NCBI RefSeq assembly: GCF_009911265.1
Contig: NZ_QXXA01000013.1
Location: 1-64,000, forward strand
Length of the DNA: 64,000 nt
Source: Senegalia massiliensis
GTDB taxonomy: Bacteria; Bacillota; Clostridia; Tissierellales; SIT17
Direction: 5' to 3'
Below are positions 1 to 26,367 of this stretch, piece by piece. The number at the start of each line of letters is the position of its first letter. The stretch's first letter is position 1. The notes under the pieces are model-generated. The model saw only the letters and a list, made by a program, of their open reading frames with translations. It was not told the origin of the DNA and made no database searches. A program made the position numbers and the translations under genes.

Positions 1-76
1 AAATAGCAATTTTTCAACTCTTTAGAGATATTTTTATATCTTTCAAAGGGTTTTTTTATTGCTAATTTATCAAATG
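1..76 (+). promoter_or_regulatory. Structured leader RNA, copy A (cut by window start)
   Basis: This is the third hairpin of a leader family that recurs at about 2.85, 5.04 and 18.98 kb. The outer arms TAGCAAT (4-10) and ATTGCTA (58-64) enclose a stem AACTCTTT/AAAGGGTT and an inner AGATAT/ATATCT stem, followed by a T run, so it resembles an intrinsic terminator inside a larger fold. The upstream promoter and first two hairpins lie outside the window. It ends in the recurring TATCAAATG motif (68-76), just before the ribosome binding site of the methyltransferase gene. Confidence 0.7.
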
Positions 77-2817: not shown

Positions 2818-2847
2818 TTGCAAGAGTTAATACTAAACTGATATAAT
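2818..2847 (+). promoter_or_regulatory. Promoter of leader copy B
   Basis: TTGCAA (2818-2823), an 18-bp spacer and TATAAT (2842-2847). The -10 and following bases (ATATAATTAA, then an A-rich ACAAATAAATAC stretch) are nearly identical in copies C and D. Confidence 0.75.
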
Positions 2848-2849
2848 TA

Positions 2850-3033
2850 ATATATACAACAAATAAATACAAAAAAACCGAGCATATATTTGTATCGGTG
2901 GCATTTATCAAATTTAATAATAGGTTAGATTATCTATTATTACACGTTTTAAAAATGAAATAGCAATTTTTCAACTCTTTAGAGATATTTTTATATCTTT
3001 CAAAGGGTTTTTTTATTGCTAATTTATCAAATG
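2850..3033 (+). promoter_or_regulatory. Structured leader RNA, copy B
   Basis: Three hairpins occur in order. The first is ACCGA/TCGGT (2877-2899), followed by GGCATTTATCAAAT. The second is AATAATAG/CTATTATT (2917-2941). The third is the long TAGCAAT/ATTGCTA structure (2961-3021), whose inner AACTCTTT/AAAGGGTT stem runs into seven T. The element ends in TATCAAATG (3025-3033). A tiny frame with its own GAGGGAGGG site (ATG at 3046, four codons) follows before the 3109 gene. Confidence 0.75.
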
Positions 3034-3108
3034 AGGGAGGGCAGTATGAAAAAGTTTTAAGGGTTTATTAATTGAACGATTTGTTTTTTAAAAAGGAGGA
3101 TTTGACAA

Positions 3109-3336
3109 ATGGACAAGAAAAAAAGGGATAGTTTAGATGACACTATTGAAAAATTAGAGAGGATCAAGATTTTATATAGTGTTGTAAGAGTACCAATTTA
3201 TATACTAGTAGTAGTATTATTACTTTCTAGTATATTCACTAATAACAGGCTACATTTATTTATGTTATTAACTATTGTTGGTTTGGATTTTGTGATTAAA
3301 AACAGAATCAAAATATTTAAAACCCTTACATACTAA
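3109..3336 (+). CDS. Small membrane protein, unknown
   Basis: A 75-residue protein with a strongly charged N-terminus (MDKKKRDSLDD) and two hydrophobic segments (about 27-44 and 49-60). It has a good ribosome binding site, AAAGGAGG. It is the first gene after leader copy B and lies in the transcript that ends with the clamp gene. I do not recognise it. Confidence 0.6.
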   Translation: MDKKKRDSLDDTIEKLERIKILYSVVRVPIYILVVVLLLSSIFTNNRLHLFMLLTIVGLDFVIKNRIKIFKTLTY

Positions 3337-3345
3337 TTTACCCTG

Positions 3346-3395
3346 CTTGGGAGGAAATATTATAAACTCCCAAGTGATGAGTTTATATATTCCTC
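3346..3395 (+). promoter_or_regulatory. Two mutually exclusive hairpins between genes
   Basis: CTTGGGAG (3346-3353) can pair with CTCCCAAG (3367-3374). Alternatively, bases 3351-3369 (GAGGAAATATTATAAACTC) can pair, with two small bulges, with 3379-3395. Both folds use 3367-3369, so they exclude each other. This resembles a switch or a differential-expression element, but no ligand domain is recognised. Confidence 0.4.
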
Positions 3396-3446
3396 TATTA
3401 GTAGTGGTTAGATTAGAATACACCACCATTCAAAGGGGGAATTTAT

Positions 3447-3707
3447 ATGGCTCAAATTATCCAATTATTTGATATTATTTCAAAATGGTTTGTAAGTCAT
3501 GGAGCTACTATAACAATATGGGGCAGTATTGGTATTTTATTTTTATCAATGATTGCATATATGGCTTGGCATTTTCTTAGTGAAATTTTCAAAGCTTTAG
3601 GAAATGTTTCAAAACATTATGGTAGAAAAAGTAGCAATTTTATTTATCGGGTTTTTAAAGTGGATAATCCAGATTATAATGACGATGAAGATAATGGCCA
3701 AACCTAG
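3447..3707 (+). CDS. Small single-pass membrane protein, unknown
   Basis: An 86-residue protein with one long hydrophobic stretch (about 20-45), then a basic region and an acidic tail (DNPDYNDDEDNGQT). The ribosome binding site is AAAGGGGGAA. It lies between the 75-residue membrane protein and dnaN in the copy B transcript. No family recognised. Confidence 0.55.
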   Translation: MAQIIQLFDIISKWFVSHGATITIWGSIGILFLSMIAYMAWHFLSEIFKALGNVSKHYGRKSSNFIYRVFKVDNPDYNDDEDNGQT

Positions 3708-3719
3708 TTTTTCAAATTT

Positions 3720-3745
3720 AGAAGGAGAATATTGTTTCTCCTTCT
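3720..3745 (+). promoter_or_regulatory. Intergenic hairpin AGAAGGAGA/TCTCCTTCT
   Basis: A 9-bp stem directly after the 3447 gene, followed by TTTTTCAAATG and then the dnaN ribosome binding site. There is no long T run. Comparable hairpins followed by CAAAT sit at 5620 and 21582. Confidence 0.45.
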
Positions 3746-3797
3746 ATTAATTTTTCAAATGTAAGAATAAAATTTAAAAATGAAAGGTGTGTTTTAC

Positions 3798-4907
3798 ATG
3801 AAAATCATAGTAAGTCAAAAGGAATTAGCAAAAGGAATAAAATCAGTAGCAAGAGGGGTAAGTGCTAAAACATCTCTACCAATATTACAAGGGATAAAGA
3901 TTGTTGCTAAGTCAGATTATTTGTTTTTGACAGGAACAAATTTAGATTTAACAATAGAAACTAAAATTTCTTGTGAAATTATTAAAGAAGGTGGTTGTGT
4001 TTTAGATGCAAAAATGCTATCAAGTATTATATCAAAATTACCTTCTGATGATATTACTATTTCAGTAGAAGATGGAAATGCTATAATAACAAACTCAACT
4101 TCAAAGTTTGAGTTATTAACAGAAAATGTTATGGAATTTCCAGAGCCTAACATAGCAACTGATGGTAATGAAATAGAGATAGAAACTGACATCTTACTGG
4201 AATGCATAAGGAAAGTTTTCTCTGCTATTTCTGATGATAATACTAGACCAATTCTTACAGGGGCAAAAGTAGAAATTGAAAATAATACTTTAACTTTTGT
4301 TGCATTAGATGGGTATAGACTTGCATATAAATCTGCTATAGTTAATTATGATGGCACTTTAGATGCAGTAATACCTAAAGCAGTACTAAATGAAATCAAT
4401 AGAATATTAACTACTTCTAAAGATATAGAAGATACTCATGTTACAATATCTAGTAATCTAGCAACTTTCAGATTAGAGAACACAAGAATATCAACTAGAC
4501 TTTTAGAAGGACAATTTATTGATTATAAACAGTTATTAAAAGATACTGCAAAGACAGTTGTTACTGTTAATGTTAACGAATTAAAAAATTCTATTGAAAG
4601 AGCAACAATATTAGGTAAGAACACTGCAAACAATTTAGTTAAATTAAGTTTCGCAGATGGAAAAGTTACTATTAAATCTAATTCTGAGATTGGAAAATCA
4701 GTTGAAGAGTTAGAAACTGAAAAATTTGTAGGTGAAGATACAATTATAGCTTTTAATTCTATGTATTTATTAGATGGAATTAAAGGTATAAATTCCAATG
4801 AAGTTAAACTATATATAGATTCAAGCGTTCAACCTATGATAATGAGAGAGAGTGAAGATGAAAAATCTTCTATTTACCTAGTATTACCTGTAAGATTAAA
4901 TAATTAA
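3798..4907 (+). CDS. dnaN: DNA polymerase III sliding clamp (beta subunit)
   Basis: This 369-residue protein has the usual clamp length. Its ends are typical: MKIIVSQKELAKGI...SLPILQGI at the start and the C-terminal YLVLPVRLN. The clamp encircles DNA as a dimer and tethers polymerases and other clients. I use ATG 3798, because GAAAGGTGTG is six bases upstream. The ATG at 3780 overlaps that site and would only add MKGVFY. Few plasmids carry their own clamp; here several neighbouring proteins end in clamp-binding peptides, so it probably serves a plasmid-specific replisome. A strong terminator follows. Confidence 0.95.
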   Translation: MKIIVSQKELAKGIKSVARGVSAKTSLPILQGIKIVAKSDYLFLTGTNLDLTIETKISCEIIKEGGCVLDAKMLSSIISKLPSDDITISVEDGNAIITNSTSKFELLTENVMEFPEPNIATDGNEIEIETDILLECIRKVFSAISDDNTRPILTGAKVEIENNTLTFVALDGYRLAYKSAIVNYDGTLDAVIPKAVLNEINRILTTSKDIEDTHVTISSNLATFRLENTRISTRLLEGQFIDYKQLLKDTAKTVVTVNVNELKNSIERATILGKNTANNLVKLSFADGKVTIKSNSEIGKSVEELETEKFVGEDTIIAFNSMYLLDGIKGINSNEVKLYIDSSVQPMIMRESEDEKSSIYLVLPVRLNN

Positions 4908-4948
4908 AAAAAGACTTACTTCTATCTCAATAGAAGTAAGTCTTTTTA
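4906..4948 (+). terminator. Intrinsic terminator after dnaN
   Basis: A stem of about 17 bp, AAAAGACTTACTTCTAT with its complement, 5-base loop, then T5. It can function on either strand. Confidence 0.9.
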
Positions 4949-5001
4949 ACTAATTAACATTATAAAATTCACCAATTTATTATGTATTAATATTATATCT
5001 A

Positions 5002-5030
5002 TTGTGTCATAGCTTATATAATGTTATAAT
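5002..5030 (+). promoter_or_regulatory. Promoter of leader copy C
   Basis: TTGTGT (5002-5007), 17-bp spacer, TATAAT (5025-5030), followed by the conserved ACAAATAAATAC start region. Confidence 0.75.
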
Positions 5031-5034
5031 TAAT

Positions 5035-5212
5035 GTATACAACAAATAAATACAAAAAAACCGATCATATATTTGGTCGGTGGCATTTATCAAATTTAAT
5101 AATAGGTTAGATTATCTATTATTACCGTTTTAAAAATGAAATAGCAATTTTTCAACTCTTTAGAGATATTTTTATATCTTTCAAGGAGTTTTTTTATTGC
5201 TAAATTTATCAA
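5035..5212 (+). promoter_or_regulatory. Structured leader RNA, copy C
   Basis: It has the same three hairpins as copy B. The first stem differs and is longer here (ACCGATC with GGTCGGT, including one G-T pair). The second is AATAATAG (5098-5105) with CTATTATT (5116-5123). The third spans TAGCAAT (5142-5148) to ATTGCTA (5196-5202), with AACTCTTT facing AAGGAGTT. Sequence changes that keep pairing argue for a selected RNA structure. The ATG in TATCAAATGAAAGGTGTG that follows opens a five-codon frame ending before the real start at 5233. Confidence 0.75.
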
Positions 5213-5232
5213 ATGAAAGGTGTGTTTTAAAA

Positions 5233-5607
5233 ATGACAACTATATTAAAGGGAACTAGTAGAAAGAGAAAGGTAAAAGGCAATTTTAGATTCAGAACTTT
5301 TATTACTATAAGTGTTTTATTTATAGGATTATTAATAGTTAATAAAGGTACTTTCACATTATTTCAACAGAAAGATTATGAAGAAACTGCTGAAATAATG
5401 GCTAATTTTATGGTTGCTGAATATGAAAGACAATCAGAAAATGGAAAAGTAGACATGAATAAAATTGTTTCAATGGCTGAAAAGCTAGATGATACAAATT
5501 CTCTTTCTGTAAACTATTCAGATAGCTCATATATGGATAGAGTTACTATAACTTTTTCTCTTGATGGTGGAAAAACTATCAAGTATAAAGATTTAAAACT
5601 AAACTAG
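5233..5607 (+). CDS. Membrane-anchored small protein, unknown
   Basis: A 124-residue protein starting at ATG 5233 behind AAAGGTGTG. A very basic N-terminus (GTSRKRKVKGNFRFR) precedes one membrane segment (about 24-42). The remainder, about 80 residues, is probably outside the cell. It is first in the copy C operon, ahead of the methyltransferase-like protein and helicase. I do not recognise a family. Confidence 0.6.
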   Translation: MTTILKGTSRKRKVKGNFRFRTFITISVLFIGLLIVNKGTFTLFQQKDYEETAEIMANFMVAEYERQSENGKVDMNKIVSMAEKLDDTNSLSVNYSDSSYMDRVTITFSLDGGKTIKYKDLKLN

Positions 5608-5837: not shown

Positions 5838-5900
5838 ACACAAATTTATTAGTTTATTAAATGATTAGAGAATTTTTCAAATGTGAGAGGGGATTTTAAA

Positions 5901-7052
5901 ATGACAATAGGAAATATTACTAACAAATTTCATAGGACAAAGTATAATGATGCAAAGTATGGTTTTTATCCAACACCATCTGAGATAGTTGAAAAGGAAA
6001 TGCAACTAATTTCATTTATAGGGGTATCCAAAGATACACCGATACCTATGTGCGATTTCTCTGGAGGTATAGGAGAACAATTATATACAATGCATAATTA
6101 CTTATCAGAAAAAGAAGGTTTAACTCCTGTATCTTATTTTAATGAGTTACATAGTGAAAGATACCAACAAGCTAGAATTAATTATAGTGGAGTTGATAAT
6201 TTCCATATGTGTAGCTCTGATCTATTTAGGCTTAAATGTAGACATAAGAGTGGTAAAAGATATGACTCTAGCGTTATGAGTATTATTAGAAACAATAGTC
6301 CATATGGGGAAACTGTCCAATATGGTCAAAAGGTTAGATTAGAAGAAATCTTCTTTGTAGAGAATGATAGATACTTAGTACCTAATGGAATACACATTAT
6401 TGAATTCCCAACTACAACACTTATTAATAATATTAATCTTTTAAGAAGAATCACTTATAGATATAAAGATATTAATATCTTTAGACTACCAAGACACATT
6501 ATGAAGAAAAAACATAATGCACAAGTTCAACAAATAGTCTTATTTGGGGTTAAGAAGAAGAAAAACTCTAATGATAAAGAACTAGCACAACAGTTACATG
6601 AACAATTAAAGCTAGGGAAGATCAAAGATATTACAGAGATTAATGAGCCGATATATTTCTTATCTGATGAAATAGTTAAGAAGGCTAAAGAGGTAACTGT
6701 ATATAGAGATGGGACAGTAAACGATATTACACTCACCAATGGTCTTAATAATGAATTAGATAGTCTTTTAAAGAAAGATAAAGACACAGATTTATTAAAT
6801 AAGAATATACAAGCTGATAAGGAAAGTATTGGGATAATAGAAAAGAAGATAGGTCATAGAGCATTAGACTTAGCTTCTGGAAAATTTAATGATGTGCAAG
6901 GAAATGTACTGATCTATGGTTATTCTGGAAAAAGAATAGATACAAAAGTTGAAATGGATGAAGATACTGAAATTACAACTGAAACTGAGGTTATTGTATC
7001 TGGAATAGAAATAACTAATAAGAATGGAACAATCCTTAGAAAAGAAAGTTAA
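5901..7052 (+). CDS. Methyltransferase-like protein with degenerate NPPY motif
   Basis: The 383-residue protein resembles plasmid and phage proteins with a class I methyltransferase fold. It has YGFYPTPSEIVEK near the start, a SAM-site-like DFSGGIGEQL (about 46-55), and IRNNSPYGE (about 131-139), where catalytic NPPY would be expected. Replacement of the first proline by serine makes activity uncertain. I place the start at ATG 5901 after GAGAGGGGA. It is followed by the giant helicase gene in the same transcript; methyltransferase-like plus helicase pairs are known from phage antirestriction systems, but that role is only an inference here. Confidence 0.6.
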   Translation: MTIGNITNKFHRTKYNDAKYGFYPTPSEIVEKEMQLISFIGVSKDTPIPMCDFSGGIGEQLYTMHNYLSEKEGLTPVSYFNELHSERYQQARINYSGVDNFHMCSSDLFRLKCRHKSGKRYDSSVMSIIRNNSPYGETVQYGQKVRLEEIFFVENDRYLVPNGIHIIEFPTTTLINNINLLRRITYRYKDINIFRLPRHIMKKKHNAQVQQIVLFGVKKKKNSNDKELAQQLHEQLKLGKIKDITEINEPIYFLSDEIVKKAKEVTVYRDGTVNDITLTNGLNNELDSLLKKDKDTDLLNKNIQADKESIGIIEKKIGHRALDLASGKFNDVQGNVLIYGYSGKRIDTKVEMDEDTEITTETEVIVSGIEITNKNGTILRKES

Positions 7053-7176: not shown

Positions 7177-10100
7177 ATGAAAATTAAAAGAGTTATAAAG
7201 TGCATTGAAGGGTTAGTGGAGAGTGCTAAAGAAATACTTAGTCTAGAAAGCTATAATAGATACGAGAAATATAATCTAAGTATCATGAAAACTTGGCTAG
7301 AAGGACTTAGCAAACAAGGTTTCGAGCCTAAAGAAAGGTTTGAAGAATTACACAACACTATTGATGCATTATACAATAGTTCTAATAGTGCTATTTATGT
7401 ATATGTCAAAGAGTTATATAATCCTGCAAGAGAGTTATTATCACTTCTTGAAGGGAAGGCAGAGGAATTAGAGCCTTATAAATTTCAAGAAATAAATGTA
7501 GATCATAATTACTATAAAGCTAAGACAGTACTATATGATGAAGATTCAGAAACAAATACAAAGACTATTAGATATATAATTGCTACATTCCTATCTGAAC
7601 AACAAATGAAAGCTATGTTGTCTAATCTTCAAAAAGGCATGAAGAGAATTAAAATTGGAGACAATTGGAATGAAGTAGCACAAGCAGTTTCAAATGGATA
7701 TCGTTGTCTATATCAACGTACCACTAGTGAGAATGTAGGTGATGGAGTCCATGCAATTATCTATAATGAAGATGAGAGAGTTATAAAAGTACACCAAGAA
7801 GATAATCCAGTAGATAGAGTGTATCAATTTATCGCAGCTAATTGTAAAACAGGGATTATTCCAAATTGGAAATCTTATTTTTATAACAAACTTACTGATG
7901 AAGGTTTACTAAGAGAGTGTAAGGGGTTTGATTATACAGGAAAAGCACCTAGTATTATTGTTTTATCAGAAGAAATTAATACTGAACTGATAATGCAATA
8001 TAAAGAAGAAGGTCTTAGAAAAGGTTTAATCAAACTTGATGTAGAAGAAAATGTAGAATTAAGTGAAGATGCTACATTTTTTGAACTTGTTAATGATTAT
8101 GTAATTCCTTATATTAAAGAGGAAAAAGTACATTATCAAGTAGGTGATCCTATTTCACCAATAATTTCTTCACCGATAGACTTTGGTAAAGGTAAGATAG
8201 GTAAACTATATCCTAAACAACAAATAACAGCTCAAGGTGGACTAAAGGCTATGAAAGATGGTAAACCTTTTATAATTCTTAGCGGGTCCATGGGTGTAGG
8301 AAAAACGTTGATTTCATCGAAGTTAGCCCTAGCACAGATATATGAAATGTATGGTAAATTTAATGGTAGGATAGCATTATTCTGTCAAGGAATTTTAATA
8401 AACAAATGGCAAAGAGAATTTTTACAAGCGTGTAAACCATTAAGAATTAAACCTAGATTCATTAGACTAGATAGCTTAGAAAATGTGAAAAAACTTGATA
8501 AAGAGCCTAAAGGTTTAGAAGTTTTATTAATATCAAGAGATAAGTCAAAAAGAAGTTATTTAGAGGAAATGGCAACTAATGAAAGGTTTAATAAAAATAG
8601 CCTTATGAAAATTACTAATTTCAAAGAAAAAGTAGTTGCTAAACATGAAGATAATAAAGTAGTATTTGTTAATAGCAATGAATTACCGATACATTTAATG
8701 AAAATTGCAGGGAGAAGAATAGAAAAGGAAACACAAAAGCCTACTATCCTTTATAAAAAGCAATTAGACAATGAAGGTAATATTATAAGTTATAAGATAG
8801 TTACACCTTCTAAAACCCTTAAAAATACTTTTACAACTAATAACTATAAGTCTTATGATTTCGAATTGAACTCTGTTGAGTTTACTAATTTCAATAATCA
8901 TATTACTGAGAATTTAGAAGTATTGATTGATGAAAGTGAGTATAAAATTCATAGACAAACTTCATTTGATAATGGTCTTGTATGTCCTAGTTGTGGTGGA
9001 TATATATATCAGAATCCTCAAAACTTATTCCATGAAGAAAAATATACTAAGCACATAAGAAGAAAGAAAAAGGATAAATCATCATCTTTCCTAAAGTGTA
9101 ATCACTATGTTAAAGCTGATGGAACAACTCTTATGGACTTTGAGATAAAAGGCATTAGAGAAGGTGAAATATCAGTTGCATTTGTGGATGATACTGAAAC
9201 TATCACATACTTAGATGCTGAAAATAATCCAATAGAGGGTAGTGAGTTATTGGATGTTAAAGCAAACAAATATACAGGAATATATATAATCAATGTTAAA
9301 AAGTGTAATCAAAAATTATGGTCAGCTGTTGATAAAAAAGGTTATAGAACAGTAAATACCTTAGCAATGACTAAAAGAAAATTCAAGTCAAAGTTTATAG
9401 ATTTTGCAATAGTTGATGAATTTCATCAGTTTTCAGCACAAAGTAATCAAGGTTATACTTATGGCTTATTAGCAAATCAGAGCAAGTATATGATTAATTT
9501 ATCTGGTACTATTAGTTCTGGTACTGCATCAAGTCTATTTTATCTACTTTATAGATTGTATCCTCAAAAAATGAAGAAACTTGGATATGAATATTCAGAA
9601 GTAGGTAAGTTCATTGATCATTATGGGAGACGTGAGAAGAAAACAAAAATTAGAACAGAACACCAATACAATAAAAGTGGAAAAGGTTATAAATCGTCAC
9701 CTTCGGTTAAAGAGAAGGCAGGTATTTCACCACTTTTATATACTAATTTACTTAGTGATGTAATGATAGCAAGAACAATAGAAGATATGCAATTACCAAT
9801 GCCAAAACTAAAGTATTACAAACATGAAATTGAAATGAGTAGCGAAATCAAAAATGGTTATGATAATCTAAAGCAACAATTAATTGACTTTATGAAAGAG
9901 AATAAGCATTTGCCACTTGGAGGAAGTTACTTACACAGTTTACTAAGCTACCCAGATTTACCTCAACAATCTCCTATATATTGGAACAAAACTGATATGC
10001 TAGTAGCAACCCCAGAGCATATTGACTTAAAGGATAAAATTTTACCAAAAGAGCAGAAACTTATTGATACAATAAATCGTGAAATAAGTGAAGGTAGAAA

Positions 10101-10848
10101 GGTACTAGTATATATGGAATATACAGGAGAGAAGGGAATTAGTAAAAGAGTTATTAATATACTTAGAGACCAAGGGATAAAAGCAATTGAAATGAAGTCT
10201 AACGGAAAAGGAAAAGTTAAAACTGAAGAAAGAGAAGAATGGATTGAGCAAAAATCTAGAGAAGGATACCAATGTATTCTAACTAATCCAAAACTAGTTG
10301 AAGTAGGATTAAATATAATTGACTACCCAAGTATTTACTATTATGAGTGTCCTCTTGGAAATGTTAAACTGCTGAGACAAAGTGAACGTAGAGCGTGGAG
10401 AACCAACCAAAAGCAAGAATGTCGCATTTACTACTCTTACTATTCAGAGACATTACAAGAAGATTTACTTAAATTAATAGGGGGTAAGAAGAAAGCATCA
10501 CTTGCACTTGAAGGAGTATTCTCAGAAGATTTACTCTCAAATATGGGTGATGTTGATGATGGAGGAAGTGAAGCTTTGTTTAAAGTCCTTAAAGGTAAAA
10601 TAACAATGAAAGAAGATGATTTAGAAGGCTTTGGTTTTTCTGATGAATCTGACCTTGAAAACATTATTAAATCAACTCAAACTATTAACGATAATGCAAA
10701 TAACTTTAATACAAATATTCATTCTAATGATAGTCGTACACAAATAGATCTGTTTACAATAACAGAAGAAGAATTAACTACTATCAATAAGAAAGAAAAA
10801 AAGAAGAAAAATATTGGAGAAGGTCAATTAAGACTTTTTGCAATGTAA
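7177..10848 (+). CDS. Large SF2 helicase (SNF2/DEAD-like) with zinc finger and clamp-binding tails
   Basis: The 1223-residue protein is an ATP-dependent DNA translocase or helicase. Walker A is GSMGVGKT (about 371-378), the Walker B/DExH box is VDEFHQF (about 744-750), motif III-like NLSGTISSG follows, and motif VI is QSERRAWRTNQ (about 1067-1077). A CPSCGGY...CNHY zinc finger is inserted between the two RecA-like halves (about 610-650). The first 360 residues are unassigned. The C-terminus has two beta-clamp-binding peptides, QIDLF (1189-1193) and QLRLF (1217-1221), matching the dnaN gene of the same element. It may act in replication fork progress or as an antirestriction helicase with the methyltransferase-like protein upstream. 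The ATG is supported by AAAGGTGTG. Confidence 0.85.
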   Translation: MKIKRVIKCIEGLVESAKEILSLESYNRYEKYNLSIMKTWLEGLSKQGFEPKERFEELHNTIDALYNSSNSAIYVYVKELYNPARELLSLLEGKAEELEPYKFQEINVDHNYYKAKTVLYDEDSETNTKTIRYIIATFLSEQQMKAMLSNLQKGMKRIKIGDNWNEVAQAVSNGYRCLYQRTTSENVGDGVHAIIYNEDERVIKVHQEDNPVDRVYQFIAANCKTGIIPNWKSYFYNKLTDEGLLRECKGFDYTGKAPSIIVLSEEINTELIMQYKEEGLRKGLIKLDVEENVELSEDATFFELVNDYVIPYIKEEKVHYQVGDPISPIISSPIDFGKGKIGKLYPKQQITAQGGLKAMKDGKPFIILSGSMGVGKTLISSKLALAQIYEMYGKFNGRIALFCQGILINKWQREFLQACKPLRIKPRFIRLDSLENVKKLDKEPKGLEVLLISRDKSKRSYLEEMATNERFNKNSLMKITNFKEKVVAKHEDNKVVFVNSNELPIHLMKIAGRRIEKETQKPTILYKKQLDNEGNIISYKIVTPSKTLKNTFTTNNYKSYDFELNSVEFTNFNNHITENLEVLIDESEYKIHRQTSFDNGLVCPSCGGYIYQNPQNLFHEEKYTKHIRRKKKDKSSSFLKCNHYVKADGTTLMDFEIKGIREGEISVAFVDDTETITYLDAENNPIEGSELLDVKANKYTGIYIINVKKCNQKLWSAVDKKGYRTVNTLAMTKRKFKSKFIDFAIVDEFHQFSAQSNQGYTYGLLANQSKYMINLSGTISSGTASSLFYLLYRLYPQKMKKLGYEYSEVGKFIDHYGRREKKTKIRTEHQYNKSGKGYKSSPSVKEKAGISPLLYTNLLSDVMIARTIEDMQLPMPKLKYYKHEIEMSSEIKNGYDNLKQQLIDFMKENKHLPLGGSYLHSLLSYPDLPQQSPIYWNKTDMLVATPEHIDLKDKILPKEQKLIDTINREISEGRKVLVYMEYTGEKGISKRVINILRDQGIKAIEMKSNGKGKVKTEEREEWIEQKSREGYQCILTNPKLVEVGLNIIDYPSIYYYECPLGNVKLLRQSERRAWRTNQKQECRIYYSYYSETLQEDLLKLIGGKKKASLALEGVFSEDLLSNMGDVDDGGSEALFKVLKGKITMKEDDLEGFGFSDESDLENIIKSTQTINDNANNFNTNIHSNDSRTQIDLFTITEEELTTINKKEKKKKNIGEGQLRLFAM

Positions 10849-16316: not shown

Positions 16317-17357
16317 ATGAAATTAAATGATTATTTTAAAGCATTTCATGGAAAAATTTCACTAAACTCTGGGAGAACACAGAGAATTAAAAATGCACAC
16401 AAGATTTGGAAAGATTTACTAAAAAATGATGAAGAACTTAAGGATTATTATGAAAAGTTTTATTTACAAGGTTCATATGCAACTTCAACTGCAATAAAAC
16501 CTATTAATGGTGGAGAATTTGATGTAGATACAATTCTAGTTCTTGATATTGATGAAAAAGAAGTGGGGATGAAACCTAAAGATGCACTTAAGTTTTTAGC
16601 AGACAGAATGAAAACTAATAAAAAATATAAGGATAAGATTAAAGTCAAAGACAGATGTGTTACAGTTGATTATAAAGATGATTTTCATATTGACATTGTA
16701 CTTTCTAAGCCAACAGATAGTGAAGTTATTCTAATTCCTTGTAAGTCAGATAATGATTGGAAAGAAACAAATCCATATGGATTTAAAGAATGGTGTAAAA
16801 CTATTAATTATAATACTAATGGTGAATTTTGTAGAATAGCTAAAATGATAAAATATTGGAGAGATACCAAGGTTGGTAAAGATACTGCGCCTAAATCAAT
16901 TTTATTAACTACTATAATAGGGGAAAATATGGTAGGGAAGAACTCAGACGCAGAAAGTCTCGTAGAAACACTTGAGAATATAGTTGAAAATATTGATAAT
17001 ATTATCAATGAAGAAACAGATCAACCATACGTAGAAAATCCATCATTAGAGGGAGAAAATCTCGCTAGAGATTGGAATAGAGAAAAATTTGATATATTTA
17101 AGATAAAATTAGAAAAGTTTACAAAAGATTCTAGAGATGCTTTAGAAGAAAATGATGAAGATAAATCCATAGAAAAATGGCAAGACATCTTTGGTACTAC
17201 ATTTCCTTCTCAATTATCTGAAGGAGCTAGTATGGCAAAATCAATATCCGAAGGTACAGCCTACATTGATCATAGCGGTCACATTAATAGAAATATAGGT
17301 ACAAAAATCCCTGAGCATAGGTTTTATGGAGAAGTTATTCATGAGACAAAAAGATAA
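16317..17357 (+). CDS. CD-NTase cyclic oligonucleotide synthase (CBASS)
   Basis: The 346-residue protein has the nucleotidyltransferase core of cGAS/DncV-like enzymes: GSYAT (52-56), catalytic acids in EFDVDT (Asp69 and Asp71) and a third in HIDIV (Asp126). CD-NTases sense phage infection and make cyclic di- or trinucleotides that activate an effector. The ribosome binding site is AAGGAGG. Its end overlaps the E2-like gene, and the next gene is a patatin phospholipase, so this is a complete CBASS operon. The C-terminus (EHRFYGEVIHETKR) would be the substrate if the E2-like partner conjugates or processes it, as reported for related systems. Confidence 0.93.
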   Translation: MKLNDYFKAFHGKISLNSGRTQRIKNAHKIWKDLLKNDEELKDYYEKFYLQGSYATSTAIKPINGGEFDVDTILVLDIDEKEVGMKPKDALKFLADRMKTNKKYKDKIKVKDRCVTVDYKDDFHIDIVLSKPTDSEVILIPCKSDNDWKETNPYGFKEWCKTINYNTNGEFCRIAKMIKYWRDTKVGKDTAPKSILLTTIIGENMVGKNSDAESLVETLENIVENIDNIINEETDQPYVENPSLEGENLARDWNREKFDIFKIKLEKFTKDSRDALEENDEDKSIEKWQDIFGTTFPSQLSEGASMAKSISEGTAYIDHSGHINRNIGTKIPEHRFYGEVIHETKR

Positions 17358-17787
17358 GGAAAGGATATTTAAGAAACTAGACAAGTTATCAAAAAAAGTG
17401 CCATGGAGTAAACAGTTATTTTCCATGAAAAATAGGTTTCCTAATTTCGAGTTCCATAGTGTTAATACAACAAATAAACATTTCATAGGGGAGTTACAAC
17501 CTACTAAGGACTCCCCTAAATATAGAGTTAAAATATTGTATCGAACTAATAAAAAACCTAAAGTATACGTTCTAGAGCCTGAAATATTAGATTCAGCTCC
17601 CCATAGATATTCGGATAATTCATTATGTCTTTATTATCCAGACGATTTATCCTTTGATCAATATAGTGTTATAGCTGATACTATTATCCCTTGGACTATA
17701 GAATGGTTATATTTCTATGAGATATGGTTAGAGGATAATGTTTGGTGGGGTAAAGAAGCTCCTCATTATATATATGAAGATAAGTAG
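17341..17787 (+). CDS. Stand-alone E2-like protein of CBASS (short type II)
   Basis: A 148-residue protein with the bacterial E2-like signature HRYSDNSLCLYYP; Cys96 is the predicted catalytic residue. It is followed by a Trp-rich segment (IIPWTIEWLYFYEIWL) and WWGKEAPH near the end. Full type II CBASS has a fused E1-E2 (Cap2) plus a JAB peptidase; here neither E1 nor JAB is present, matching the short type II form. Its inferred role is to prime or regulate the CD-NTase. I choose ATG 17341, because GGAGAAG is seven bases upstream; this overlaps the CD-NTase end by 17 bp. ATG 17326 is in frame but has no site. Confidence 0.88.
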   Translation: MRQKDKERIFKKLDKLSKKVPWSKQLFSMKNRFPNFEFHSVNTTNKHFIGELQPTKDSPKYRVKILYRTNKKPKVYVLEPEILDSAPHRYSDNSLCLYYPDDLSFDQYSVIADTIIPWTIEWLYFYEIWLEDNVWWGKEAPHYIYEDK

Positions 17788-17816
17788 AAAAGTAAATGAG
17801 TATAGGAGGAATTTAT

Positions 17817-18809
17817 ATGGCTTTAGTTTGGAAGGATATTAACAGTGCAGATGATATACTTACATGGAAACCAGAGAATAAAAAAAAATTTAAAGTATTA
17901 GCTATAGATGGCGGGGGAATTAAAGGTGTTTTTCCAGCCAAGTATTTACAAATGATAGAAAATAAAATAGGTGGGAATATATATGAACACTTTGATTTAA
18001 TAGTAGGGACATCAACAGGTGGAATAATTGCATTAGCTCTGTCTATAGGAGTTTCTACATCGGAGATAGTTAAGTTATATAAGGACTTAGGTAAGAATAT
18101 TTTTAAGTCAAGATTGGTAAATAGAGTAGCTCATCCAATAACTCATGCATTGTTAAAGAGTAAGTATGACAATAAAAATTTAACTGTAGCACTTAAAGAT
18201 GTGTTTGGAGATAAAAAAATTAAGGATGCTAAGACCTTATTATGTATACCATCTATTGATTTTTATAGGGCTAAGCCAAAGGTATATAAAACACCTCATA
18301 GCCATTATCACTTAGATAGGAATTTAAAGATGTGGCAAGTTGCTCTAGCAACTTCTGCTGCTCCTACTTATTTTCCAGCTGCTATTGTCGATAAAGCAGC
18401 TGGTACTCCTGACTATATGATAGATGGTGGATTATGGGCGAATAATCCTAGTGTTATAGGTATTTGTGAAGCACTACACTTTGGTTGTAATCTAAAAGAT
18501 ATACAACTTTTGTCCATAGGTACAGGACACTGTGTTTATAAAGGAAAGAAAGAAAAAGCACTAAAAAGTGGATTTTTAAGTTGGGGTACAGGACTTGTAG
18601 ATTTTACTATGAATGCTCAAAACTATGGAAACAATGCTATGGCAATGTATCTATTACCAGAAGAAAACTTCGACCGAATAGATTTTGAAACAGGTGATAA
18701 AATAAATTTAGATTCTGTAGATGATAAATCTATTGAAATTCTTATGAAAGAAGCAGAGAGAGCATATGGAAAAACTTGTCCCGACATAGAAAATAAATTT
18801 TTCATCTAA
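17817..18809 (+). CDS. capV: Patatin-like phospholipase effector (CapV family)
   Basis: A 330-residue patatin. It has the oxyanion hole DGGGIKG (31-37), nucleophile Ser66 in GTSTG (64-68) and catalytic Asp203 in DGGLW. In CBASS, CapV is switched on by the cyclic nucleotide and degrades membrane phospholipids, killing the infected cell before phage release. The start is ATG 17817, behind AGGAGGAA. It follows the E2-like gene by 29 bases and is followed by a very strong terminator, which marks the operon end. Confidence 0.93.
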   Translation: MALVWKDINSADDILTWKPENKKKFKVLAIDGGGIKGVFPAKYLQMIENKIGGNIYEHFDLIVGTSTGGIIALALSIGVSTSEIVKLYKDLGKNIFKSRLVNRVAHPITHALLKSKYDNKNLTVALKDVFGDKKIKDAKTLLCIPSIDFYRAKPKVYKTPHSHYHLDRNLKMWQVALATSAAPTYFPAAIVDKAAGTPDYMIDGGLWANNPSVIGICEALHFGCNLKDIQLLSIGTGHCVYKGKKEKALKSGFLSWGTGLVDFTMNAQNYGNNAMAMYLLPEENFDRIDFETGDKINLDSVDDKSIEILMKEAERAYGKTCPDIENKFFI

Positions 18810-18814
18810 TTTAA

Positions 18815-18864
18815 ATATAGTAATATACCTCTCTTATATAAGAGAGGTATATTACTATATTTTT
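18815..18864. terminator. Terminator closing the CBASS operon
   Basis: Perfect arms of about 24 bp (ATATAGTAATATACCTCTC and on), followed by T-rich DNA. Confidence 0.9.
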
Positions 18865-18948: not shown

Positions 18949-18977
18949 TTGTTTTTGAATTACTGAAATGATATAAT
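18949..18977 (+). promoter_or_regulatory. Promoter of leader copy D
   Basis: TTGTTT (18949-18954), 17-bp spacer, TATAAT (18972-18977) with upstream TGA as in copy B. Confidence 0.75.
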
Positions 18978-18981
18978 TAAC

Positions 18982-19160
18982 ATATACAAAACAAATAAAT
19001 ACAAAAAACCGAGCATGTATTTGTATCGGTGGCATTTATCAAATTTAATAATAGATTAAATTATCTATTATAATAGCTTTTAAAAATGAAATAGCAATTT
19101 TTCAACTCTTTAGAGATATTTTTATATCTTTCAAAGAGTTTTTTTATTGCTAAATTTATC
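18982..19160 (+). promoter_or_regulatory. Structured leader RNA, copy D
   Basis: Same order of hairpins as copies B and C: ACCGA/TCGGT, AATAATAG (19047-19054) with CTATTATA, and TAGCAAT (19092-19098) to ATTGCTA (19146-19152). The inner stem is AACTCTTT/AAAGAGTT, fully Watson-Crick here where copies A and B have G-T pairs. About 100 further bases, with a possible TTTAAGAA/TTCTTAAA pairing, separate it from the primase-like gene. Confidence 0.75.
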
Positions 19161-19257
19161 AAATGGTATAACAATTTTAAAAATAATAGGAGTTTAAGAA
19201 CAGAGGAAAATATATTTTACAAATATATTCTTAAATTCTAATAGGAGGTTATCAAAT

Positions 19258-20613
19258 ATGGGAGTAACAAAATGTGCAGATGGAAGTGTATTCATACCAA
19301 TTCGTTCTGGTGAATCTTGTCCTATATGTGGAAGTAGAAAAGGTAGATGTTCTAAATTTTATAATGATGAGGGAATATTAGTGTTTTATCGTTGCAAAAA
19401 TCAACCAAGTGATAAACCTAATAATGGTTGGTACATACACACTATAAAAGACTTAGAAGGTATTAATCCTAATGACAGGAAAATAAACTCTATACCAAAT
19501 ATTACAGTAGGAGAAGAAATGTCTGAAGAACGATTAAATATAACTGATAGTGCATATCGTTACTTTAGAAGTTTATTAAAAAAATATGAAGGAAAATACC
19601 TAAATCAAAGAGATTTATCTGACCTTCATAAAAGAGGAGTTTCTGATGAGATAGTTGAAAGAATGAAACTATTTTCAATGCCTACATTAGTAATTAATTC
19701 TCAAAAAGAATTAGATAATTTTAAGTTAATGAAATCAAAAAAACTGTATACAAAACAAAAAAGATATACAGGAAAACCAATTAGGGTATTTGTAAGAAAT
19801 TACTCTGATGGTGAAAATACTTATGATTGTCAGTATCAAACTGCAATAGCAAAAGACATGGAAAGGAAATTTGGAAATGAACTTTTGAAAGTTGCAGGAT
19901 TCGCTAAAAGAAGTGGTGCAAATGGTGATTATATTACGTTTCAAAGTGCTAGATATAATGGCTTATTTAATCTAATAACTAAAATATTAACTGTTGCACT
20001 ACTAACAAAGGATAGTAACTTGTTAAGACTTGCTTATTCAAACTTCTGGAGAGTAGAACAATTTAAACCTATAAAGGGGTATTTCATACCTTATATTAAT
20101 CAAGAGGGGAAAATACAAGCAGTACAATATAGACTAACTATACCTATTCTTGATGATAAGTATAAACCAATGAGATACTTCTGGTATTCTTCTAAAAATG
20201 CAAGAAGTGGTAGTCCAATAGACTATTACATACCTTCAAAAATATTTACTAGATCTGATGGTAAAAAAAGAGAAGATATATTACTTGTTACAGAAGGTGC
20301 TTTAAAAGGGAAAATTGCTGCTGAAAGGCTAGGGTTTAAGACAGTTACAGAGGCAGGAGTTAGTAACTATCGAAATCTAATTGAAGATATTATTGAAATA
20401 TCTAAATATGAAAAAATAAGGCATAAGATAATCTTAGCTTTAGATATGGATAAGTTTGAGAATGAAGAGGTAATGAAAGCAGAACAAAAAACTATGACAT
20501 TACTTCATCAAGCAGGATATGAGGTTGCTATTGCTTTTTGGGATGGTAGAGTAGCAAAAGGCATTGATGATGCTCTTAAATTAAAGTTAAAAATTCAATT
20601 TAAGGCAGTTTAA
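19258..20613 (+). CDS. Primase-like protein: zinc finger plus Toprim domain
   Basis: The 451-residue protein begins with a DnaG-type zinc finger (CPICGSRKGRC...YRCKN, about 21-45). It ends with a Toprim-like domain: LLVTEGALKGK (about 342-352) supplies the conserved Glu, and ILALDMDKF (about 392-400) the DxD. This layout is typical of phage and plasmid primases of the DUF3854/Toprim type. The ribosome binding site is AGGAGG. It is first behind leader copy D. With the AEP-like initiator, the element may carry two priming enzymes; the division of labour is unclear. Confidence 0.75.
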   Translation: MGVTKCADGSVFIPIRSGESCPICGSRKGRCSKFYNDEGILVFYRCKNQPSDKPNNGWYIHTIKDLEGINPNDRKINSIPNITVGEEMSEERLNITDSAYRYFRSLLKKYEGKYLNQRDLSDLHKRGVSDEIVERMKLFSMPTLVINSQKELDNFKLMKSKKLYTKQKRYTGKPIRVFVRNYSDGENTYDCQYQTAIAKDMERKFGNELLKVAGFAKRSGANGDYITFQSARYNGLFNLITKILTVALLTKDSNLLRLAYSNFWRVEQFKPIKGYFIPYINQEGKIQAVQYRLTIPILDDKYKPMRYFWYSSKNARSGSPIDYYIPSKIFTRSDGKKREDILLVTEGALKGKIAAERLGFKTVTEAGVSNYRNLIEDIIEISKYEKIRHKIILALDMDKFENEEVMKAEQKTMTLLHQAGYEVAIAFWDGRVAKGIDDALKLKLKIQFKAV

Positions 20614-23646: not shown

Positions 23647-25548
23647 ATGAATACTATAGATATATTGAACAAATGGGCTAAGTTTAGCAAATATGAGCCT
23701 AATAAGAATACTTGGAAAGCAGGAAGTAAACAATATGAGTTAGACAAAGATAATGAAGTTATTGCTACTATTATGAAATATGATAGTTCTAGTGTTTCAA
23801 CTTGTTTATATGCCAAACATATTTTTAAAAAACATGTAAGTGATAAGAAATTTTCTATACTTGATATATTGAATAATAATTATAATATATCTGAAAACGT
23901 TAAAGAAATGTGGGAACTATTTAATTCAATAGAGATAATAGACTTTGAGAAAAATCTCTTAGAAGATATAAATACAAACATAGATAATATATCTAAGAAT
24001 AGGGAAATAGGGGATATTAAATCTGAGATTGATATTGAAGATATAATGGATATATATGGTACTGTTATTGAAGATATAGATAGTTGTAACTATGAAGTCT
24101 ATAATAAAGGTAAAAATGGAGAAGGCAATTTCGTTACCAATGATTTAATTTATATATTTAATAGTTTAAAGGAGTGTATCTTAACAATAGAAAATTCTAA
24201 GGATGGAATATATCTATGTTTTATTAATAATCATGAAACATTTAATTACTTTGCTTTAGTGGTTAAGGATGGAGAAAATATATACTCATTTAATGATAGA
24301 CTAGATGAAAAATATCCTAATCAATATATGAAAAAGAGACTTCCAGGAAGAGATGCAAGTAGGGGCAAGATATTTTCATTATTCCCTTATGATAATGAAG
24401 AACTTTTCGAACTTGGTGGTGTTGATTATAAAGGATATTCTACTAACTATAAAATAAATAACAAGAATACAATGTCAATATTTCAATTAGGAAGAAATTA
24501 TTATCTACCTATAGTAATATCTATGAGTATTATTAAGAATGCTTTTGTTGGTAAAGAGATAGAGGGGAATATAACGTATTTATTCAACTTAGCTATAAAA
24601 AGTTCTAATAATATGCTGATGGAAGCAACTAAAAACCAAATGGCAAAGAGCAGCGTATTAAATAATTATAAAGATGAGATATTTGAGGATTTTAATACAA
24701 AGGGCTTTTTAAAGGGTAATTATGGTTATATACTTAAAGATTATGGAAGAGAATCACAAAATACAAATCAGATATTAATTGACTTATATAGTGGAAATTA
24801 TCAAGAAGATAAGATTAATTTTCATAACAAATTATCTAAAAATGAAATATTAAAAGTTACAGAAGGGGAATTGGTTGGAGATCAAGGAAAAATTAAGAGT
24901 ATTCAATATTGGTTGGCTAGAAGAAATCTAGCTGAACATATAGAAAAGGAAATGGAGAATGAACTGAAAAAGTTCGGAGGAACAGAAGGATTAAATAGAT
25001 GGTATCGTAAAAAAATAAAAGATAATATAGATAATTTATATAAAGCTATTGCTGAAGGAAAATGGATTGGTGAAGTATCAAAGATGCATGATATATGGGA
25101 TATGAAATGGGAAAAATCAAATATTATGCAATTGATAGACCTATCTGCAGATAGTATTGATTTGCATGAAATGTGGCATTTAAGAACAGTAATAGGAGAT
25201 AGTGATGAAAGAAATAATAGATATTGTCCAATAACAGGTTCAAAAGCAAGTATAGTTGCCATTCTCAGACCTCAGACTTGGGAAGATGTTGCTAAACTTA
25301 TTGGAGTAGATAAAGATGAATTACCTAAACTTGTTAAGGGATGGAAGTATCATCAAGAATATATAGGTAATTCTATATTAGATATGATAGACCCAGTAGA
25401 AGAAATAAAGCATATACTAATGCCTAGATGTGAAAATAGTTTTAGCTTTAAAATAGCTATTTACTTATCTAAGAGAGGTTATGCTCAGATATGTAAGAAA
25501 TATAATGAAGATGGTAATGTAAATAAATTTTGGATTAATGAGAATTAG
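23647..25548 (+). CDS. Large soluble protein, unknown
   Basis: A 633-residue protein. I start at ATG 23647 after GAGAGGTGG; an upstream in-frame codon at 23599 has no such site. It is acidic to neutral and without clear membrane segments or catalytic motifs I can name. A late segment includes LHEMWHLRTVIGD and NRYCPITGSKA. Residues about 330-400 reappear, diverged, as a fragment at 26137. It is probably controlled by the 78-residue regulator. A toxin, effector or defence role is possible but not shown. Confidence 0.5.
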   Translation: MNTIDILNKWAKFSKYEPNKNTWKAGSKQYELDKDNEVIATIMKYDSSSVSTCLYAKHIFKKHVSDKKFSILDILNNNYNISENVKEMWELFNSIEIIDFEKNLLEDINTNIDNISKNREIGDIKSEIDIEDIMDIYGTVIEDIDSCNYEVYNKGKNGEGNFVTNDLIYIFNSLKECILTIENSKDGIYLCFINNHETFNYFALVVKDGENIYSFNDRLDEKYPNQYMKKRLPGRDASRGKIFSLFPYDNEELFELGGVDYKGYSTNYKINNKNTMSIFQLGRNYYLPIVISMSIIKNAFVGKEIEGNITYLFNLAIKSSNNMLMEATKNQMAKSSVLNNYKDEIFEDFNTKGFLKGNYGYILKDYGRESQNTNQILIDLYSGNYQEDKINFHNKLSKNEILKVTEGELVGDQGKIKSIQYWLARRNLAEHIEKEMENELKKFGGTEGLNRWYRKKIKDNIDNLYKAIAEGKWIGEVSKMHDIWDMKWEKSNIMQLIDLSADSIDLHEMWHLRTVIGDSDERNNRYCPITGSKASIVAILRPQTWEDVAKLIGVDKDELPKLVKGWKYHQEYIGNSILDMIDPVEEIKHILMPRCENSFSFKIAIYLSKRGYAQICKKYNEDGNVNKFWINEN

Positions 25549-26136: not shown

Positions 26137-26340
26137 ATGGAAAAAAGTAAAGTATTTAATAATTATAAAAATAATCAATTTGAGGATTTAAATGCAAAAG
26201 ATTTTCCAAATTATAGCTATGGATATATATTTAAAGATTATGGAATAGAATTACAAAATAACAATCCGATATTATTTACATTATATAGTAGAGATTATGA
26301 AGAAAAAAAGATTAATCTTAACAAGCAATTGTCTAAAAAC
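26137..26340 (+). pseudogene. Fragment duplicated from the 23647 gene
   Basis: The translation MEKSKVFNNYKNNQFEDLNA... parallels SSVLNNYKDEIFEDFNT... of the 23647 protein for about 65 residues, through YGYI(L/F)KDYG, LYS and KINxxxKLSKN. It has no ribosome binding site and joins in frame to a separate membrane protein start. It looks like a remnant of a partial duplication. Confidence 0.65.
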
Positions 26341-26367
26341 AAAAAAGATAGTAGGGGAGGTAAAGTT

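Follow-up and report, generated by a model that had tools for sequence, protein, structure and literature searches.

Introduction

The put element of the proteobacterial phage HK022 is a ~70-nt RNA of two stem-loops that begins the early transcript, occurs before more than one operon of the same element and has terminators downstream; put alone acts on the beta-prime zinc domain of RNA polymerase (PMC9378689). Among Gram-positive conjugative elements, conAn of pLS20 and canT of Tn916 are RNAs that modify polymerase so that it passes terminators, each within one long conjugation operon (PMC8955417, PMC11658703). The dfn leader of Bacillota combines a promoter, one small UNCG hairpin and an intrinsic terminator, and the hairpin is needed for the readthrough factor, the NusG paralogue LoaP (PMC12691694). 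The leaders recognised by ANTAR proteins (EutV, NasR) carry two tandem six-base-loop hairpins before an intrinsic terminator, with A at loop position 1, G at loop position 4, and a second hairpin that overlaps the terminator stem (PMC8934654). Finally, the pLS20 family carries EGeRS1, a GC-rich structured sequence of 420–750 bp that lacks a constitutive sigma-A promoter; it is present in several copies, upstream of ardC and of further establishment operons, and blocks read-in transcription (PMC8708921). Here we describe a structured leader RNA of Senegalia massiliensis that is repeated before the replication and establishment operons of a large plasmid. The window analysed covers 64 kb from the start of contig NZ_QXXA01000013.1 (hereafter C13; 121,932 bp), from a source genome of 3.1 Mb.

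The leader has two stem-loops at the transcript start as put does, although no sequence similarity between them was recognised, and it differs from put in that every leader has a terminator of its own and its two hairpins share a conserved hexaloop. It shares with dfn the succession of promoter, small hairpin and intrinsic terminator, with two hexaloops in place of the single UNCG hairpin. Unlike conAn and canT, the leader is repeated, and all copies found precede replication or establishment operons, with none before the transfer operon. Like EGeRS1 it is a multi-copy structured element of establishment operons, but it is ~180 nt long, AU-rich and equipped with a sigma-A promoter. A covariation-backed RNA family of this kind defines, by sequence alone, the replication and anti-restriction regulon of a rare family of large plasmids. 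Because the same RNA is repeated before these operons, one factor could time plasmid establishment, and the activation of establishment genes is a question that also concerns the pLS20 plasmids carrying EGeRS1.

A repeated leader RNA on a large circular plasmid

The ends of C13 share a 14 bp overlap and a leader copy cut by the contig end resumes at base 1, which together indicate that C13 is a circle. It carries genes for an N6-methylase, ArdC, a DNA clamp, an SNF2-type helicase, a DnaD-like protein, a DUF3854 primase, a topoisomerase, Rad52 and type II/IV secretion ATPases; with its own replication and secretion or transfer-type genes, C13 is thus a large circular plasmid of ~122 kb. Five near-identical leaders lie on its + strand, starting at 2850 (copy B), 5033 (copy C), 18982 (copy D), 104785 (copy E) and 121813 (copy A), the last crossing the contig end to base 76. 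Identity is 100% for 2850–3033, 96% for 5033–5215, 94% for 18982–19165 and 98% for the copy beyond the window (C13:104785–104968). A diverged sixth leader (C13:119163–119400) lies 5′ of the Rad52 gene. A preliminary description had counted four copies; the repeat is real, and its number on C13 is five near-identical members plus the diverged one. No copy was found on the other contigs of the source genome, and the remaining matches in this genome were short, AT-rich and at chance level.

Every C13 copy is preceded by a sigma-A-type promoter with a spacing of 17–18 nt, and the −10 box lies 26–34 nt upstream of hairpin 1 (H1) in 11 of 11 leaders. Conservation begins immediately after the −10 box, and the sequence upstream of it is unrelated among the C13 copies. 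The repeated unit is therefore the transcript and not the promoter, so that the promoter once thought to be shared by the copies is better described as a separate −35/−10 pair held at a fixed place in each.

In the leader, a pair of tandem hairpins, each capped by a UA(G/U/A)AUU hexaloop and joined by a GGCAUU-type linker, is followed by an intrinsic terminator. Minimum-energy folds of several copies, computed without alignment, agree on two six-base-loop hairpins followed by a terminator hairpin and U run, and the fold of copy B is far beyond chance (z = −6.6 vs shuffles). In the C13 copies the loop of H1 is UAUAUU (UGUAUU in copy D) and that of hairpin 2 (H2) is UAGAUU (UAAAUU in copy D). 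In copy C, H1 reads ACCGAUCA-UAUAUU-UGGUCGGU and H2 reads AAUAAUAGGU-UAGAUU-AUCUAUUAUU. The first stem, ACCGAUCA/UGGUCGGU in copy C, is ACCGAGCA/UGU-A-UCGGU in copies B, D and E; contrary to the difference in length once proposed, it spans 8 bp in every copy once G-U pairs and a single bulge are included. All 13 leaders inspected have a terminator hairpin and U run ahead of the first gene, separated from H2 by 12–30 nt.

Covariation with a second plasmid

A relative of the C13 primase (57% protein identity) is encoded on C181, a 160.7 kb contig of a genome (G008) from another family of the same order. Upstream of the C181 primase gene lies a leader of the same architecture with different stem sequences, and the two plasmids have dozens of genes in common. 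Six leaders were found on the minus strand of C181, at 133789, 124118, 119437, 117282, 101760 and 99158. The outcome that was to have refuted the element, a lack of further homologues showing compensatory changes, was looked for and its opposite emerged, since these six homologous leaders show compensatory change on a wholesale scale. A model built from five C181 copies, with no C13 input, detected the sixth C181 copy as well as each of the five on C13 (E 3e-6 to 0.011 for the latter). Across the two plasmids the loops are UA(G/U/A)AUU, with U at position 1 and A at position 4, and the variants UGUAUU and UACUUU.

In the joint alignment of the two plasmids, which is fitted to the model and hence biased towards it, 95.2% of cells are paired, 15 of 17 pairs show two-sided changes, and the covariation score is 0.886, compared with 0.307 for shuffled alignments (0/500) and 0.06–0.20 for slid partners. 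The C181 copies alone, aligned with plain MAFFT, gave double-sided changes in 10 of 17 pairs and a score of 0.653 vs 0.259 (0/500). The covariation as a whole rests on ten distinct sequences from two plasmids. Hairpin 2 of C181 keeps near-zero conserved stem bases, yet folds in every copy. Four leader positions are orthologous between C13 and C181, namely those before the primase, the clamp, the methylase-helicase operon and Rad52/ArdC, so that four of the six C181 leaders precede orthologous operons. Both the selected RNA structure and the single regulon of several operons that the preliminary description had put forward are, on these comparisons, well supported, since pairing survives across two plasmids despite changed stems and the leaders keep their operons.

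The repeat might instead act as DNA, in the form of an operator, replication iteron or mobile repeat whose hairpins are incidental, and its multiple copies near promoters and in replication operons would suit such a role. Within a single plasmid, however, stem sequences differ freely from copy to copy and yet still pair, G-U pairs included, and the frequency of G-U pairs fits an RNA better than a DNA palindrome. The unit also begins at the transcript and not at the promoter. Single-stranded promoter DNA showed no tendency to fold in the three copies examined (z near 0 for either strand), on which ground a single-stranded-DNA promoter of the Frpo type was rejected. We regard a DNA-level repeat as highly improbable.

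A proposed attenuator and the readings that compete with it

The arrangement suggests a mechanism in which a sigma-A promoter dedicated to each copy would drive transcription of a 5′ leader RNA. The hexaloop hairpins, joined by the GGCAUU-type linker, would fold first, and the terminator, ~12–30 nt later, would halt transcription before the first gene, so that the default state would be off and would yield a short attenuated RNA. A trans-acting factor would bind both hexaloop hairpins, and perhaps the linker, on the nascent RNA at the polymerase, and the bound factor would make RNA polymerase ignore the terminator. As the element heads all of the replication and establishment operons (those of the primase, the clamp, the methylase and helicase, and Rad52 and ArdC), one such factor would turn on the whole set, for example on entry into a new host. 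The promoters, the structure and its covariation, the terminators, the membership of the regulon and the lack of a competing antiterminator helix are established by sequence, while termination and readthrough themselves, the factor and its signal are inferred, and we consider it fairly probable that the leader is an attenuator opened by a hairpin-reading factor that alters RNA polymerase.

Attenuation or antitermination, as first proposed for this locus, remains the best reading we can infer; its classical form, by competing base-pairing, found no support when tested. If control were riboswitch-like, or of the ribonucleic antiterminator (RAT) or ANTAR type, an alternative helix would have to cover the 5′ arm of the terminator. 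No such helix was found in any of the 13 leaders inspected. In all 13, complementarity between the terminator 5′ arm and the RNA upstream falls below that of shuffled sequence (z +0.35 to +1.31), for which a sign test gives a p of 0.0002 that is indicative only, as copies within one plasmid are not independent. The lack of a competing helix points to an action on the elongating polymerase and not to mutually exclusive folds. A leader peptide was also considered and rejected, as no open reading frame (ORF) with a Shine-Dalgarno site is conserved across the 13 leaders.

That action need not require a factor. The hairpins could bind polymerase in cis, as put does, and confer constitutive resistance to terminators, with the leader terminator serving as an insulator that blocks transcripts from outside. 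The two stem-loops lie directly past the promoter, as in HK022 putL (PMC9378689); conAn and canT offer Gram-positive precedents, on a plasmid and an integrative and conjugative element, for RNAs that antiterminate against insulating terminators (PMC8955417, PMC11658703); and the missing antiterminator helix is equally expected here. The put and canT RNAs need no dedicated partner; a hexaloop that is conserved in both hairpins while the stems are free to change looks more like a protein site, and the same contrast leads us to favour a factor over an RNA acting alone. Terminators within the operons are moreover not clearly enriched. We therefore hold a factor-free, put-like RNA to be unlikely.

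The attenuator opened by a hairpin-reading factor faces difficulties of its own. Operon-internal terminators, which processive antitermination would predict, are not enriched on C13 (0.09 vs 0.14 per kb in the transfer operon), and an apparent enrichment within C181 operons (13 vs 4, p 0.008) was discarded because many of the matches are hairpins before Shine-Dalgarno sites with a T-rich start region behind them. Known readthrough factors are scarce as well: ANTAR genes are absent from C13, with three ANTAR domains in the host chromosome, and each Clostridia host genome (G000, G008) has one NusG domain only. The RNA could, besides, act in translation or stability.

Assignment to the LoaP group was rejected on the lack of a NusG paralogue in either Clostridia host and of a UNCG tetraloop in the leader. 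A host ANTAR protein might still bind the dual hexaloop, given two hexaloop hairpins before a terminator and the three ANTAR domains of the host genome. The loops, however, have U first and A fourth in place of A and G, and H2 stands clear of the terminator instead of overlapping it (PMC8934654). The leader was accordingly not placed in the ANTAR family, and we would give binding by an ANTAR protein very little credence.

Candidate factors and gene-proximal tags

Two plasmid proteins were considered as partners of the leader. An S1-like protein (C13:115947–116801) contains three S1 domains, and a PDB profile search places it among relatives of ribosomal protein S1 (E 2e-43). It is conserved in C13, C181 and a third plasmid (described below), an S1 protein is also annotated on plasmid pMU3262, and the three-domain protein is a plausible candidate for the factor. 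A small KOW-like protein near DUF6744 (C13:113713–114054 and C181:134581–134946, 34% identity) is a candidate only.

The operons with leaders carry a second kind of mark. In those of C181, a hairpin of the form AAGACGN...N′CGTC stands 1–5 nt before most of the Shine-Dalgarno-like sites that it precedes. The 27 sites all lie on the leader (minus) strand, from 132258 to 96736, and their closing pair, which may be A-U, G-C or U-A, is complementary in 27 of 27 (p 3e-12). The combination of this hairpin and a Shine-Dalgarno site was found nowhere else in the 3.6 Mb G008 genome. Operons of this class on C13 carry an analogous box, TTATCAAAT...TTTAAAAATG or TTATCAAATG...TTTAAAAATG, which also occurs within the leader, around hairpin 2. 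Its sites on the + strand include window positions 1124, 3753, 5207 and 5653 and C13:106889, 119580 and 120543; with the leaders counted, there are 13 paired matches on the + strand and zero on the minus strand. The box is often followed by AAAGG(T)GTG and often preceded by ACAAATARAAACAAAAAAA. The C13 and C181 tags mark the leader operons as one post-transcriptional set.

These tags lend themselves to two further readings. In one, the leader and the gene-proximal boxes are sites of a plasmid RNA-binding protein that governs translation or mRNA stability, and the terminator merely trims the RNA. The restriction of the gene-proximal motifs to leader operons in both C181 and C13, together with the S1-like protein encoded by the plasmid, speaks for such a role, but translation control needs no terminator, and one with a U run is kept ahead of the first gene in every leader. 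We judge this reading quite improbable. In the other, the plasmid would run a private regulon in which the hexaloop leader gates transcription and the gene-proximal tags, GACGN...N′CGUC hairpins before Shine-Dalgarno sites on one plasmid and UUAUCAAAUG...UUUAAAAAUG boxes on the other, gate translation. An RNA-binding protein encoded by the plasmid, for which the S1-like protein is the simplest choice, would read both and so set the replication and establishment mRNAs of the plasmid apart from those of the host. This two-tag scheme is a long shot.

Separately, a gene-end hairpin, GAAGAGG...CCTCTTC, recurs in the leader operons of C181, for example at 131320, 115680, 114872 and 98463.

Distribution of the leader

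A covariance model, R2, found the leader in the C13 genome and one other, that of C181; scans of 249 genomes from the order and 391 from the class yielded nothing further. A weak R2 match on another contig (G054:C279), where an ABC-transporter gene ends, was set aside as chance, as were two DNA matches in relatives from the order. A blastn search against phages and plasmids returned only chance AT-rich matches, and a 24-base pattern was absent from viral contigs. A loose hexaloop pattern gave 120 stretches; 80 loci were examined with R2, which had no match in any of them. Primase profile searches of class and phylum samples returned only the C13 plasmid. Protein scans of viral and genome contigs, for which few patterns were used, were mostly empty, with the exception of one genome scan that led to a third plasmid.

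This third plasmid is a 101.5 kb contig (JACDNZ010000005.1) from a metagenome-assembled genome labelled Thermosipho, and it shares the primase and a block of transfer-type genes. It carries two leaders of the same plan, in which a promoter is followed by a hairpin, a linker, a second hairpin and a terminator within a larger outer stem; the loops are different, and the linker at the primase leader is GUGGCA. Plasmid pMU3262 of Thermoanaerobacterium saccharolyticum (NC_017998.1) has annotated genes of the same kinds, and, when the predicted folds are inspected, its helicase, clamp, Rad52 and ArdC operons likewise open with a promoter-like stretch, either one hairpin or two, and a terminator. These pMU3262 leaders do not match R2, and no multi-copy repeats of the leader kind were found in the two parts of pMU3262 that were searched, 1–24 kb and 74–111 kb. 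The promoter-hairpin-terminator plan thus probably predates the multi-copy hexaloop form. A search of Rfam gave no match at the gathering score, the only hit being a chance microRNA match (E 0.69). The leader is a new RNA family absent from Rfam and, by its architecture, which recalls LoaP leaders, put, conAn and canT, apparently of the antitermination or attenuator kind.

Leader copies and neighbouring genes

All copies in the window are on the + strand. Window positions 1–76 are the 3′ half of copy A, whose 5′ half is C13:121813–121932; the terminator stem pairs 16–23 with 45–52, the U run spans 51–57, and the outer stem pairs 4–10 with 58–64. Its operon encodes the N6-methylase (114–1100) and ArdC (1152–2048), both assigned with Pfam. 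The sigma-A-type promoter of copy B (2818–2847) consists of TTGCAA, an 18 nt spacer and TATAAT with a TG extension. The leader RNA (2850–3033) comprises H1 (2877–2899, hexaloop UAUAUU), H2 (2915–2942, hexaloop UAGAUU) and an intrinsic terminator (2961–3021), AACTCTTT/AAAGGGTT plus a U run within a TAGCAAT/ATTGCTA outer stem, and it heads small ORFs and the DNA clamp gene (3780–4907). The promoter of copy C (5002–5030) has TTGTGT and TATAAT separated by 17 nt, again with a TG extension, and is followed by the leader (5033–5215), with H1 at 5060–5081, H2 at 5097–5124 and the terminator at 5154–5195. The operon downstream includes an ORF at 5233–5607, a DUF6094-like methylase (5883–7052) and the SNF2-type helicase (7177–10848). 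Copy D (18982–19165) follows a promoter at 18949–18977 (TTGTTT, 17 nt, TATAAT, TG extension), contains H1 (19008–19030, UGUAUU), H2 (19045–19073, UAAAUU) and a terminator (19104–19145), and heads the operon of the DUF3854 primase (19258–20613).

In the diverged sixth leader, the H1 stem, ACUAUCU/AGAUAGU, is identical to the one in its C181 orthologue at 124118; pMU3262 has a similar stem before its ArdC operon.

Immediately 5′ of copy D lies a gene pair (window 16317–18809) resembling a cyclic-oligonucleotide-based anti-phage signalling system (CBASS), with a SMODS nucleotidyltransferase and a patatin-like phospholipase, and this pair is closed by a strong terminator at 18814–18861. The window also contains a 208-bp direct repeat of 77% identity (24640–24847 and 26137–26344), which takes in the beginning of one ORF (26137) and part of another (23599).

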